The notes below the pieces were generated by a model. It ran no database searches. It was not told where the DNA came from and saw nothing but the letters and a program-made list of their open reading frames with translations. Positions 16,644-21,804 of a stretch of 34,242 nt of DNA are shown here, piece by piece. The position numbers and the translations under genes are program-made. This stretch comes from Pseudomonadota bacterium (GTDB lineage: Bacteria > Pseudomonadota > Gammaproteobacteria > Acidiferrobacterales > Acidiferrobacteraceae), in contig JAKAXT010000012.1 of the NCBI GenBank assembly GCA_021816425.1, forward strand, positions 1 through 34,242, in the 5' to 3' direction. Within the stretch, counting starts at the first letter, position 1; each line of letters opens with the position of its first letter.

Positions 16644-16722
16644 GCGGCCCCTTGGAGTCTTCGCGAGTTATCGTCTTTGACTGGAGGAGCGGGTCCGACG
16701 CAAGCCGGCCCGAGCGACGGTG

Positions 16723-17724
16723 ATGAATATTCAGCCCATGGAATTGTTTGACGAGGTTGTGAATCCCGACCTGGACGAAGTGAGCGCCCTCATGCGGGCG
16801 AACTGGACGCCGCCTTGCTGGCTCTACGAGCCGGACCTTTTGGCCATGCACATCATGAGGCCCACCGCGGACCCGTCGATGGCGGTGGGCCTGCGCGCGA
16901 AGAGCGGCGAACTGGCCTCCTATCTCGCGTTCGTGCCCCTGCGCCTGCGCATCCACGGCCGCATCTACAAGGCCGTGTTTGCGAGCTTTTTCACGGTTTC
17001 CGGCCACTACCGGCGTCATCGCCTGAGCGATCGCCAGCAGGGGCTCATGGTGGATCGCGCGCGCGATCGCGGTTATGAGGTGTACGCGGCGGTCACCGTC
17101 GCCGGGACGCCGGCCAACCAGACCGTGGCGCGGGCGTTCGGGGCGCGCGGCCTGCCGGTGCGCGCCGCGTACAATTTCCGTTACCTCGCGGGGGCCCGGG
17201 CGATCGTGGCGACCCGTCTGGGCGCCGGCGCCGCAGGAAATGTGCGGCCTTACGCGCCAAGCGACGAGGACGTCGCGTTCGCGCTGCTGTCGGAGGCCGC
17301 GGCCTGCGCGCCGCTTGCGCAGGTGGTGGAGCGCGAGGACGTCGACTTCTCTCTGCGCGGCCGGCCGCGGATCAAGACCTACGTCTACGAGAGCGAGGCC
17401 GGCGTCCAGGCCCTCATGAGCGTCTCCTTGCTGCCGGTGCTGTCGGGGCGGGTCGGTCTGAACGCTTATGTGGAGGCGCTCGCGCTCGGGCGCCTGGAGC
17501 CCGCGGCGCGCATGGCCTTCGTCGACGCGGTGCTGCGTTCGGTGCTCCTGGAAGGGGCCGAGGCGATCATGGTGCCGGACACGGGCCGCGCTGATCTCGC
17601 GGTGTTCAGGCGCCTGGGCTTTCGGGCCGCCCCACGGAAGCTTCGGCTTCTGCTCGCCCCCTTGCGCACGGACGTGACCGACCTTCCGGAGACGGTGGAT
17701 GGGTTCTGCCTCGACGTGTTCTGA
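16723..17724 (+). CDS. GNAT-superfamily-like N-acyltransferase
   Basis: The 333-residue protein has two GNAT-like halves. The first contains VGLRAKSGELASYLAFVPL, then ASFFTVSGHYRRHRLSDRQQ, where an acetyl-CoA pyrophosphate loop would normally be (Q/R-x-x-G-x-G/A is not strict here), and RARDRGYEVYAAVT. The second half ends with AFVDAVLRSVLLEGAEAIMVPDTGRADLAVFRRLGF, a typical GNAT beta-alpha C-terminal end. Proteins of this size and layout often transfer amino acids or long acyl groups from a carrier. It follows the carrier-protein ligase by 79 bases and precedes the hexapeptide transferase by two, so a shared pathway is likely. The start ATG 16723 is chosen over GTG 16720; neither has a strong ribosome site. 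The substrate is unknown. Confidence 0.65.
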   Translation: MNIQPMELFDEVVNPDLDEVSALMRANWTPPCWLYEPDLLAMHIMRPTADPSMAVGLRAKSGELASYLAFVPLRLRIHGRIYKAVFASFFTVSGHYRRHRLSDRQQGLMVDRARDRGYEVYAAVTVAGTPANQTVARAFGARGLPVRAAYNFRYLAGARAIVATRLGAGAAGNVRPYAPSDEDVAFALLSEAAACAPLAQVVEREDVDFSLRGRPRIKTYVYESEAGVQALMSVSLLPVLSGRVGLNAYVEALALGRLEPAARMAFVDAVLRSVLLEGAEAIMVPDTGRADLAVFRRLGFRAAPRKLRLLLAPLRTDVTDLPETVDGFCLDVF

Positions 17725-17726
17725 GC

Positions 17727-18299
17727 ATGGCGACGGGTTTTAGGGAGACCGTGCGGGTCCTGCTCGCGGGCCTCGGGACCGTGATCGCGCTGCCGGCTTT
17801 GGTCATCGCCGACTGGGGCCGCCTGGACGAGGGTTTCATCCTGGGCGGCCAGGCCCTCGCCCTGGTGCCGGGGGTCATAGGCGATGCCGCGCGCGCCGCC
17901 TTCTATGCGCGCACGCTCGCGCTCTTCGAACCGGGCGCGGCGGTACGCTTCGGGAGTTATTTTTCGAAACGCGGCGCGCGCGTCCATGCGGGCGCCGGGA
18001 TAGGGGCCTATTGCGTCATAGGCCTGGCCGACTTAGGGCCGCGCGTGCGGATCGCAAGCCGCGTGTCCATCACTTCGGGTCTTCATTATCACGGCAGCGC
18101 CGCCCGCGGCGTGGAGGATCGGGACGTGGTCGAGCGGGTGACCATAGGCGCCAACACCTGGATCGGGGAGGGGGCGGTCATCGGCGCCGACGTAGGCGCC
18201 AACTGCATCGTCGGCATGGGGTCGGTCGTCATTCAGCCGGTTCCGGACGGGTCCACGGTCATGGGCAATCCGGCCCGGCGCATCCCCACGGCCGCCTGA
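17727..18299 (+). CDS. Hexapeptide-repeat (left-handed beta-helix) acyltransferase
   Basis: The 190-residue protein has an N-terminal part with a hydrophobic helix (about 8-28). Hexapeptide repeats then run from about residue 70 to 180, with turns such as ARVHAGAGIGAYCVIGLADLG, VTIGANTWIGEGAVIGADVG and NCIVGMGSVVI. It ends VMGNPARRIP, the usual C-terminus of acetyl/acyltransferases of the WcaF/NodL/CysE type. The His in GLHYHGSA is a candidate catalytic base. These enzymes O- or N-acylate sugars or small molecules using acyl-CoA or acyl-ACP. Two bases separate it from the GNAT-like gene. The exact substrate cannot be read from the sequence. Confidence 0.75.
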   Translation: MATGFRETVRVLLAGLGTVIALPALVIADWGRLDEGFILGGQALALVPGVIGDAARAAFYARTLALFEPGAAVRFGSYFSKRGARVHAGAGIGAYCVIGLADLGPRVRIASRVSITSGLHYHGSAARGVEDRDVVERVTIGANTWIGEGAVIGADVGANCIVGMGSVVIQPVPDGSTVMGNPARRIPTAA

Positions 18300-18314: not shown

Positions 18315-19184
18315 TCAGGCGGGCTCGGGCGAGAGCAGCACACCCTTCATGGTATCGAGGGCCTTTTTCTCGATCTGCCGGATGCGTTCGGCGGACACCC
18401 CGTATTCTTGCGCGAGCTCGTGCAAGGTCGGCTTCTCGGTGGCAAGCCAGCGCCTGCGGATGATGTCCTGGCTGCGCCCATCCAGGCACACGAGCGCGTT
18501 TTGCAGGCGATCGTGCTGCGAGGTCTCGGCATCGGCGGAAGTCAGGAGACTCTCCGGGTTATAGCGCATGTCCTGGAGAAAGCCGGCCGGCGACGAGCGG
18601 AAATCCTCGTCGTCGCTCTCGTCTTGCGCATCGAACGGCACATCCGTGCTCGCCATCCGCGACTCCATCTCCTTGACGGTGTCGGTCGGCACGTCGAGGT
18701 CCGCAGCCAGGTTCGAGATCTCGTTCTCGTTCATCCAGCCTATGCGGGCCCGCGATTGGCGGAGGTTGAAGAACAGCTTGCGCTGGGCCTTGGTCGTGGC
18801 GACCTTGACGATGCGCCAGTTGCGCAGGATGTAATCGTAGATCTCGGCACGTATCCAGTGGATGGCGAATGACACCAAGCGGACGCCGTGCGCCGGATCG
18901 AAGTGCTTCACGGCCTTCATGAGGCCGATGTTGCCCTCTTGGATGAGATCGGCCTGCGGCAGGCCATAGCCCGCGAAGGCCCGGGCGACGCGGATGACGT
19001 AACGGAGCTGGGACAGCACGAGCTGCCGGGCGGCCTCGAGACTATTGTGCTCCCGGTACTCGATCGCGAGCGCCCGTTCCTGATCGGCGTCCAGCAGGGG
19101 CGCGGCATTGGCGAGGCGCATGTAATGCGAGAGCCCGCCTTCCGCGCTTACGTTGACGGCGATTGGCAAGGTTTGTGTAGTCAT
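18315..19184 (-). CDS. rpoH: Heat-shock sigma factor RpoH (sigma-32)
   Basis: This 289-residue group-3 sigma factor directs RNA polymerase to heat-shock promoters. It has region 2 with DLIQEGNIGLMKAVKHFDP and FAIHWIRAEIYDYILRNW, the RpoH box QRKLFFNLR at residues 134-142, and region 4 with TLHELAQEYGVSAERIRQIEKKAL for -35 recognition. The length matches the family. It is last in a long minus-strand run after ftsX, with a 106-base gap that carries a CIRCE operator and a promoter-like sequence, so it probably has its own regulated transcript. The ATG at 19184 follows a GGGGG-TAGGAA stretch. The gene order ftsY-ftsE-ftsX-rpoH is conserved across Gammaproteobacteria. Confidence 0.97.
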   Translation of the reverse strand: MTTQTLPIAVNVSAEGGLSHYMRLANAAPLLDADQERALAIEYREHNSLEAARQLVLSQLRYVIRVARAFAGYGLPQADLIQEGNIGLMKAVKHFDPAHGVRLVSFAIHWIRAEIYDYILRNWRIVKVATTKAQRKLFFNLRQSRARIGWMNENEISNLAADLDVPTDTVKEMESRMASTDVPFDAQDESDDEDFRSSPAGFLQDMRYNPESLLTSADAETSQHDRLQNALVCLDGRSQDIIRRRWLATEKPTLHELAQEYGVSAERIRQIEKKALDTMKGVLLSPEPA

Positions 19185-19224: not shown

Positions 19225-19254
19225 ATTTTAGCATTCTCGGCCTGAGAGTGCTAA
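19225..19254 (-). promoter_or_regulatory. Candidate rpoH promoter overlapped by CIRCE
   Basis: Reading toward rpoH, TTAGCA (19254-19249) could be a -35 and TAAAAT (19230-19225) a -10, with an 18-base spacer and a TGC just before the -10 (extended -10). Transcription would begin near 19218, giving a leader of about 34 bases. The CIRCE arms cover both elements, so a bound repressor would block polymerase. Confidence 0.5.
19228..19254. promoter_or_regulatory. CIRCE operator (HrcA binding site) upstream of rpoH
   Basis: The plus strand reads TTAGCATTC, nine bases, GAGTGCTAA. The CIRCE consensus is TTAGCACTC-N9-GAGTGCTAA, so 17 of 18 arm positions match and the spacer is exact. HrcA binds this element to repress heat-shock genes, classically groESL and dnaK. 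Here it sits 44 to 70 bases before the rpoH start codon. Confidence 0.88.
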
Positions 19255-19290
19255 TTCCCGTGAAAAGTTCCGGCGGCAGGCGGTCGCGTC

Positions 19291-20187
19291 TCAGGCCTCG
19301 CCCCGGCGCAGGGCCCGCGCGACCGCGATGCGCGCCCCGAGCCAGCCGAGCGAGGCGCCCAGCGCCAAGAGCGCCAGGGCCTGCTCGAGGCCCAGACCGG
19401 ACAGGCGGTAATGGGCCCCGTAGGCGCGATCCAGGGCCGCCACGGGCCCCTCCAGGGCCACGAGCCCGGCCTCGAGGACCATAAGCGCGCACAGTGCGCC
19501 CAAGCCCCCGGTCAGCGCGCCGATATACAGGAAGGGACGCCGGATAAAGGCATTGGTTCCCCCGACCAGACGAACGACCGCGATTTCGGTGGCACGGCTC
19601 GCCACGGTCGCGCGGGTGGTGTTGGCGAGAATAAGGACGAGGGCGAGGCCCAAGGTCGCCGCGAGGATCGCCACCAGACGCCGCCCGAGGGCGAGCGCGG
19701 CGTCGAGGCGCTCGACCCATACCAGGTTGGACTGGACGTGCGCCACATCGGGCAAAGTCTTGAGCTGCGCGGCGAGGCGCGCGACCGACCGGGGCCCGGG
19801 ACGCGCGGGCGCGACGATGGCCACGCCCGGCAAGGGGTTGCGTCGGCCGAAGAGGCCCATGGGCCCGAGCCCGGAGGCCCTCTTGAATTCGCGCAGGCCC
19901 TGGGCGGGCGAGATGTAGCGCACCGCGGCCACCCCGGGGACGCGGCGGATGGCGGCCACGGCCTCGTCGTCTGCGCCGCCCCTCTTCAGGTAGACCGAGA
20001 GCGAACCGCGCGGCTGCCACCCCTGGCTCAGTCTCTGCAGATTCACCAGCCCGACATAGAGACCGGTCGGCAAAGCGAGGGTCAGGCCGATCAGGATGAT
20101 GGTCATCAGGGTGGGCGCGGGGCTGCGCGCGAAGTCGCCGAGCGTCCTCATGAAGACCTGCGCATGACGGGTCATGTAGGCCTTCAT
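19291..20187 (-). CDS. ftsX: Cell-division ABC-like permease FtsX
   Basis: The 298-residue membrane protein pairs with FtsE to regulate peptidoglycan hydrolases at the septum. One transmembrane helix lies at about 24-48, then a periplasmic domain (about 50-165) with the typical SVYLKRGGADDEAVAAIR and YISPAQGLREF, and three more helices in the C-terminal half (about 170-195, 215-240, 265-290). ATEIAVVRLVGGTNAFIRRPF is the FtsX family signature loop. The ATG at 20187 overlaps the ftsE stop by four bases (ATGA), so the two subunits are co-translated. Length is close to the usual 300-350 residues. Confidence 0.95.
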   Translation of the reverse strand: MKAYMTRHAQVFMRTLGDFARSPAPTLMTIILIGLTLALPTGLYVGLVNLQRLSQGWQPRGSLSVYLKRGGADDEAVAAIRRVPGVAAVRYISPAQGLREFKRASGLGPMGLFGRRNPLPGVAIVAPARPGPRSVARLAAQLKTLPDVAHVQSNLVWVERLDAALALGRRLVAILAATLGLALVLILANTTRATVASRATEIAVVRLVGGTNAFIRRPFLYIGALTGGLGALCALMVLEAGLVALEGPVAALDRAYGAHYRLSGLGLEQALALLALGASLGWLGARIAVARALRRGEA

Positions 20188-20843
20188 GCCGCCCCCAGCA
20201 TATGCCCCGCGCCAAGGCGTATGACCCGTTTCTTCAGGCGCTCGATCTGGCGGAGGTCGTGGGTGGCGACCAGGACCGTGACGCCGTGGTCGTTGAATTC
20301 GCGAAAAAGGTCGATGATGTCGTCGGACAAGGCGGCGTCGAGGTTGCCGGTCGGTTCGTCGGCGATGAGCACCGGCGGGCGATGCACGAGCGCGCGGGCG
20401 ATGCCCACGCGTTGCTGTTCGCCGCCGGACAGGGCGAGCGGGAAACCGCGTTCCCGGCCCCTCAAGCCCACCTTGTCGAGGGCCGCGAGCACGCGCTTTC
20501 GGACCTCGTCCCCGGTCATGCCTGCCACCACGAGCGGCAAGGCCACGTTGTCGAACACCGTGCGTTCGTTCAAGAGGCGGTTGTCCTGGAACACCACGCC
20601 GATCTCGCGCCGGAAGTAGGGCAGTCGCCGGGCGGGCAGCCGCCCGAGGTCGTGGCCGTTGACCGTGATCTGGCCGCGCGTGGGGCGCTCGAGCAGGCAG
20701 ATCAGCTTCAGTACGGTGCTCTTGCCGGCCCCCGAGGGCCCGGTCAAAAAGGCCATCTCGCCCTTGTCGAGCGAAAACCCGACATCACTCAAGGCCTCCG
20801 TCCCCAGCGGGTAGCGCTTGAAGACGTGTCTAAGTTCGATCAC
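20184..20843 (-). CDS. ftsE: Cell-division ATP-binding protein FtsE
   Basis: This 219-residue ABC ATPase has Walker A GPSGAGKS at 35-42, Q-loop FQDNRLL near 86, signature LSGGEQ at 138-143 and Walker B VLIADEP at 158-164, followed by the FtsE-typical TGNLD. Together with FtsX it signals to septal amidase activators. The start is GTG at 20843, which lies 14 bases inside the end of ftsY, and the stop overlaps ftsX by four bases. Length and neighbours leave little doubt. Confidence 0.97.
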   Translation of the reverse strand: MIELRHVFKRYPLGTEALSDVGFSLDKGEMAFLTGPSGAGKSTVLKLICLLERPTRGQITVNGHDLGRLPARRLPYFRREIGVVFQDNRLLNERTVFDNVALPLVVAGMTGDEVRKRVLAALDKVGLRGRERGFPLALSGGEQQRVGIARALVHRPPVLIADEPTGNLDAALSDDIIDLFREFNDHGVTVLVATHDLRQIERLKKRVIRLGAGHMLGAA

Positions 20844-21804
20844 TGAGGAGTTCCGCCGGCAGGACCGCGTCGACGAAGGACCGGGCGTCGAAGGGGCGCA
20901 GGTCGTCCACGGACTCGCCGACCCCCACGAAATAGATCGGCAGCCCGAAGCGTTTGGCGAGCGCGAACACGACGCCCCCCTTGGCGGTCCCGTCGAGCTT
21001 GGTGATGCAAAGACCCGTGACGCCTACGGCCTTGTGGAACTGCTCGACCTGCGCCACGGCATTCTGGCCTATGCCCCCGTCCAGGGTCAGGATGACCTGG
21101 TGGGGGGCCTGGGCGTCGAGCCGCGCGAGCGTGCGCTTGATCTTAGCGAGTTCGTCCATGAGGCCGGCCTGGGTGTGCAGGCGGCCGGCGCTGTCGATGA
21201 GAAGCACGTCCACGCCCCGCGCCCGCGCCGCCTGCAGGGCGTCGTGGGCGACGGCCGCGGCATCGGCCCCGCGCGGCTGGCTGATCATGGCCACGTCCGA
21301 GCGCCTGGCCCATTCGCCGAGCTGCTCGATGGCGGCGGCGCGGAAGGTGTCGCCGGCCGCGAGCAGGACCGAGCGGCCCTCGCCCCGCAGCCGCGCGGCG
21401 AGCTTGCCGATGGTGGTGGTCTTGCCGGCGCCGTTTACCCCGATCATGAGGACGATCTCGGGTTTGTGGGCCACGGGCCAGGGCTTCTCGCAGGGTTGCA
21501 CGATCTCGTAGAGGATGGAGCGCAGGGCCCCGTAGACGGCCTGCGCATCGCCGAGTTCCTTGCGGGATATGCGGCGGGTGATGTCGGCCATGACCGCCGT
21601 GGCCGTGTCCACGCCGAGGTCGGCTGTGATGAGCGCCGTCTCCAGGTCCTCGAGCAGCGCCGCGTCCAGGGTCCGCTTGCGCTTCAGCAGGTCGCCGACA
21701 TTGTCGCTCAAGGCCCGGCTCGTGGCGGCGAGGCGTTCGCCGAGACGAGTGAGGACGCCCGGTTTCTCGCTCTTGTCGCCCGACGTCTTACGAAAGAGCG
21801 CCAT
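20830..21804 (-). CDS. ftsY: Signal recognition particle receptor FtsY
   Basis: This 324-residue SRP GTPase docks ribosome-nascent-chain complexes at the membrane for insertion of membrane proteins. The N domain covers about 15-105, G1 is GVNGAGKT at 122-129, then DTFRAAA at 152-158, DSAGRLHTQ (G3) and TKLDGTAKGG (G4 and nearby). The acidic A domain of E. coli FtsY is absent; the protein is close to the minimal NG form with a short basic lead of about 20 residues. It starts six bases after the ferredoxin stop and overlaps ftsE by 14 bases. Confidence 0.97.
   Translation of the reverse strand: MALFRKTSGDKSEKPGVLTRLGERLAATSRALSDNVGDLLKRKRTLDAALLEDLETALITADLGVDTATAVMADITRRISRKELGDAQAVYGALRSILYEIVQPCEKPWPVAHKPEIVLMIGVNGAGKTTTIGKLAARLRGEGRSVLLAAGDTFRAAAIEQLGEWARRSDVAMISQPRGADAAAVAHDALQAARARGVDVLLIDSAGRLHTQAGLMDELAKIKRTLARLDAQAPHQVILTLDGGIGQNAVAQVEQFHKAVGVTGLCITKLDGTAKGGVVFALAKRFGLPIYFVGVGESVDDLRPFDARSFVDAVLPAELLSDRT

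Follow-up and report, generated by a model that had tools for sequence, protein, structure and literature searches.

The 34,242-nucleotide stretch of DNA analysed here (hereafter the window) carries rpoH, the gene encoding the heat-shock sigma factor σ32, with ftsY, ftsE and ftsX lying upstream of it and reading in the same direction. Between ftsX and rpoH lies a CIRCE (HrcA operator), the bases of which are shared with two putative promoters. The features of interest are as follows:

18315–19184, minus strand: rpoH, heat-shock sigma factor σ32, 289 amino acids (TIGR02392, 368.8 bits, cut-off 323.1)
19225–19233, minus strand: extended −10 element TGC-TAAAAT, composed of the right arm of the CIRCE and the AAT that follows it
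19228–19254, minus strand: CIRCE, conserved in relatives; read along the rpoH strand it is TTAGCACTC-TCAGGCCGA-GAATGCTAA, with 17 consensus bases out of 18 in the arms
19243–19247, minus strand: candidate σE −10 element TCTCA, comprising the last bases of the left arm and spacer bases 1–3
19249–19254, minus strand: σ70-type −35 element TTAGCA, supplied by the left arm of the CIRCE; many relatives have TTGGCA here
19265–19271, minus strand: candidate RpoE (σE) −35 element GGAACTT, at a fixed phase to the CIRCE in 84 of 116 rpoH regions (see below)
19291–20187, minus strand: ftsX, the upstream neighbour
20184–20843, minus strand: ftsE
20830–21804, minus strand: ftsY

On the plus strand, a 334-residue open frame (16720–17724) without an NCBIfam match is convergent to rpoH; it is adjoined by a frame at 17727–18299 that resembles hexapeptide-repeat acetyltransferases.

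Read along the minus strand, the control region runs GGAACTT TTCACGGGAA TTAGCACTC TCAGGCCGA GAATGCTAA AATTGCG. Beyond the −10 element come a short leader, a strong ribosome site (AAAGGGGG) and then the rpoH ATG at 19184, with 43 bases separating the ATG from the operator. The initial annotation had placed a CIRCE over the rpoH promoter, with 17 of 18 arm bases matching and the exact spacer, and this was borne out: the pattern TTAGCACTC-N9-GAGTGCTAA matches the window once only, at 19228–19254, with one mismatch and the exact 9-base spacer, and it found no match in 100 dinucleotide shuffles. At the window's base composition, a CIRCE with one mismatch or fewer is expected about 0.0003 times per 2.3 Mb, and together with the shuffles this figure rules out a chance palindrome. 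The promoter-like element proposed at the same place was also recovered, as TTAGCA-18-TAAAAT at 19254–19225 on the minus strand with a TG ahead of the second hexamer.

The one departure from the consensus is a G-to-A change in the right arm (GAATGCTAA, window 19228–19236), common to every member of the window's family that was sampled (rpoH loci L005–L021). The left arm is consensus in the own-family loci that carry the change, and the groES and hrcA CIRCE sites of the same genome depart from the consensus in other ways. The altered arm could weaken HrcA binding in this family, and repression may be tuned down as a result, allowing basal synthesis of σ32.

The assembly from which the window derives (2.3 Mb in 160 contigs, ~89% complete) encodes an HrcA protein (PF01628, 219.5 bits, G000:C148), the presence of which the initial annotation had named as a check on its proposal. 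A genome-wide search for CIRCE allowing up to three mismatches returned three sites only (none in the backwards control), lying ahead of groES-groEL, hrcA-grpE-dnaK-dnaJ and rpoH. The same genome encodes an RpoE orthologue (TIGR02939, 316.7 bits, cut-off 236.15). Using a simple pattern, no clear σE promoter was recognised upstream of this genome's own rpoE gene, and the σE consensus used here therefore rests on the rpoH regions and on E. coli.

The closest named relatives are Acidiferrobacter and other Acidiferrobacterales genomes. Within the order and among close relatives (80 contigs plus loci from the closest genomes, two overlapping sets), a CIRCE with zero to two mismatches is found upstream of rpoH at every rpoH locus scanned. 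Gammaproteobacteria outside the order were sampled at one genome per family, with 11 more families added later. In the first set, the operator precedes rpoH in 30 of 33 genomes encoding HrcA versus 3 of 22 in which hrcA was not detected; in the enlarged set these figures become 33/36 and 3/30 (Fisher p ~6e-12, kinship ignored). Conservation in related species, the second check named at the outset, is thus seen both in the order and beyond it. The exceptions are three genomes that have hrcA but no site at rpoH, and three (62, 81 and 97% complete) that retain the site although hrcA was not detected in them. On a single-gene rpoH tree, the hrcA and site traits change 13 and 15 times, respectively; the kinship-corrected test, underpowered with three supported independent pairs, pointed the expected way in almost every draw, with a median p of 0.25. 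The association is strong in numbers, and common descent may contribute to it. Of 22 HrcA-encoding genomes sampled from the remaining classes of the phylum, one has a strong CIRCE at rpoH and one a weak CIRCE. The site is accordingly neither peculiar to this genome, being present across the order and in other families, nor universal in the phylum. A CIRCE before rpoH is the rule among the sampled gammaproteobacteria that encode HrcA.

A number of individual loci depart from this simple picture of one operator per gene. Tandem CIRCE sequences or an extra half-site are seen upstream of rpoH in some relatives (G066:C61:202567-202625; L101, at −63 and −95; L162). One genome (G088) carries two rpoH copies, L170 (G088:C325) and L144 (G088:C289), only one of which has a CIRCE. 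At L148, in a genome that encodes HrcA (G093), the right half (GAGTGCTAA) is perfect and the left arm has decayed, a pattern resembling an operator in the course of loss. Finally, the rpoH of L067 (VRUB01000005.1), titled Nitrospira sp., is 68% identical to that of the window and has the same CIRCE architecture; the title is probably wrong or the bin mixed.

Repression by HrcA of the gene for the heat-shock sigma factor itself, the central claim of the initial annotation, is strongly supported by the presence of hrcA, the conservation of the site and the co-occurrence of the two across gammaproteobacterial families. The simple hierarchy in which that claim was framed is incomplete, however: because HrcA also has direct predicted sites at groESL and hrcA-grpE-dnaK-dnaJ, the predicted circuit is feed-forward rather than a bare hierarchy. 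Similarly, the contrast that was drawn with a usual layout, in which HrcA acts on chaperone genes and RpoH in parallel, holds for the other classes sampled but not for the gammaproteobacteria, where a CIRCE at rpoH as a rule accompanies hrcA.

Might HrcA and RpoH nonetheless act independently here, with the rpoH CIRCE of minor importance and σ32 set mainly, as it is in E. coli, by translation and by the stability of the protein? The right arm is off consensus, and the RpoH protein contains the stretch QRKLFFNLR, which is characteristic of proteobacterial σ32; given this stretch, post-translational control is likely to coexist with control by HrcA. Yet the operator has been kept across families whose RpoH proteins are only 47–60% identical and is mostly missing where hrcA is missing. 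Nor does the short leader by itself point to translational control: folding of the leader plus start is ordinary (z ~0, for pairing within that segment), the leader has no Rfam match, and an RNA thermometer is not put forward for it. We consider independent action improbable; HrcA very probably controls RpoH rather than acting beside it, in this acid-mine-type bacterium and in nearly all of the sampled gammaproteobacteria with hrcA.

The relationship between the operator and the rpoH promoter was examined by comparing 116 distinct rpoH regions with 46 control operators (34 from groES and 12 from hrcA). The bases directly 3′ of the operator are A, A and T in 92, 100 and 108 of the 116 rpoH regions, respectively. 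The triplet [AT]AT follows the operator and completes a −10 element in 91/116 rpoH regions but at none of the 46 groES and hrcA operators, with the left arm supplying TTAGCA or TTGGCA as the −35 element 18 bases away. On these sequence criteria, the rpoH operator is the promoter itself, a point that the initial annotation overlooked.

That the arms coincide with promoter hexamers also raises the converse idea, that the palindrome is mainly a promoter (−35 plus extended −10) or the site of another factor, and resembles CIRCE for that reason. A promoter alone would not preserve CACTC/GAGTG or the exact 9-base spacer, however, and the site co-occurs with hrcA; furthermore, the palindrome is missing from E. 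coli rpoH, where the best candidate has eight mismatches. This explanation is highly improbable.

A second promoter appears to be interleaved with the first. The start of GAACTT lies 15 bases ahead of the operator in 68 regions and 16 bases ahead of it in 16, and the sequence begins almost nowhere else, even though the distance from operator to codon 1 varies from 16 to 106 across the rpoH regions. Both predicted σE halves (GAACTT and TC..A) are present in 75 of 116 rpoH regions. At the 46 control operators, GAACTT is never seen at the fixed phase and the T.A spacer bases occur at two hrcA sites only, ruling out these promoter elements as a general trait of CIRCE flanks. The window itself (GGAACTT-N17-TCTCA) matches the predicted σE promoter pattern of GGAACTT, N15–17 and TC..A upstream of rpoH, with a spacing of 17 where most relatives have 16.

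The spacing of 17, and the fact that about a quarter of rpoH regions (32/116) are missing the σE −35 element, would suit a more modest reading, in which HrcA represses the σ70 promoter only and the σE −35 element and TC..A represent a remnant or a weakly active promoter, with envelope stress inactive here. This seems unlikely in view of the fixed phase of GAACTT in 84 regions, the conserved T.A spacer bases that are almost exclusive to rpoH, the presence of rpoE and the occurrence of the same promoter at E. coli rpoH. We favour gating of both promoters: since the operator shares bases with predicted σ70 and σE promoters alike, HrcA should gate both the housekeeping and the envelope-stress input to rpoH.

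Taken together, these results make it probable that the CIRCE functions as an HrcA operator and at the same time forms the heart of the promoter region of rpoH, gating σ70 and σE transcription, with release by heat. For rpoH we infer HrcA binding, use of both promoters with 5′ ends to match, and a cycle of repression, heat release and GroEL feedback. In the absence of heat, HrcA bound at the CIRCE would cover the σ70 −35 and −10 elements and the σE −10 element, keeping rpoH expression from both promoters low. Upon heating or protein misfolding, HrcA would be inactivated through its own thermolability and/or the loss of GroEL, derepressing rpoH along with groESL and hrcA-grpE-dnaK-dnaJ, and σ32 would then drive the wider heat-shock regulon. 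Envelope stress would add to rpoH transcription via σE once HrcA had been released, and newly made GroEL would reactivate HrcA, completing the circuit. Other HrcA proteins are known to be released by heat and restored by GroEL.

E. coli is the model for σ32 control, and its HrcA-free wiring is taken as the gammaproteobacterial norm. The present data suggest that in the part of the class that encodes HrcA, a repressor stands above σ32, and that HrcA there controls the established link from σE to rpoH. A broader proposal is that a composite rpoH element, with HrcA gating σ70 and σE transcription, is class-wide among gammaproteobacteria with hrcA, and that loss of hrcA, as in the E. coli lineage, left a bare σE promoter; we regard the chances of this as evenly balanced. 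Upstream of rpoH in genomes without detected hrcA, the exact GAACTT-N15–17-TC..A pattern is present in only 5 of 27, and retention of the σE promoter after loss of hrcA is thus borne out in some genomes only. The proposal offers a concrete account of how the heat-shock response may be rewired upon hrcA loss, and one that is open to testing in cultured species.

How does this arrangement compare with known systems? E. coli rpoH is preceded by GAACTT-N16-TCTGA, and its P3 promoter is σE-dependent. The window has the same σE-type GAACTT element upstream of rpoH; E. coli differs in having neither HrcA nor a CIRCE at this gene, and the rise in σ32 there rests on translation and stability. The classical HrcA/CIRCE system of groESL uses the same operator and is also found in this genome; at groES the CIRCE has the classical layout, with a separate TTGACA/TATGAT promoter immediately upstream of it, whereas at rpoH the arms are the predicted promoter. 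Binding of RpoE to the rpoH promoter has been documented in Vibrio alginolyticus (PMC4890791). In Agrobacterium tumefaciens, both regulators are present, as here, but they are laid out in parallel, HrcA and RpoH acting independently according to the title of Nakahigashi et al. (1999), as cited in PMC11764788; this is consistent with the one strong and one weak rpoH CIRCE among the 22 other-class genomes encoding HrcA.

The closest precedent is that of Geobacter sulfurreducens, for which a CIRCE at −51 from rpoH was predicted, along with others at groESL and hrcA-grpE-dnaK-dnaJ (Rodionov et al. 2004, PMC545781, Table 8). The three targets are the same as those found here; the G. sulfurreducens case differs in concerning one deltaproteobacterium, with consensus arms and as a prediction only, and neither promoter overlap nor a σE element is described in the passages of that paper that deal with CIRCE. 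In the open-access literature, we found no description of a CIRCE at a gammaproteobacterial rpoH or of an rpoH CIRCE overlapping σ70 and σE promoters; older subscription work likely to contain predictions for beta- and gammaproteobacteria (Permina and Gelfand 2003) may already mention the former. A CIRCE before rpoH had, then, already been predicted in 2004; what appears to be new here is the sharing of bases between the operator and the predicted σ70 and σE promoters, and the standing of this operator as a rule among the sampled gammaproteobacteria that encode HrcA.
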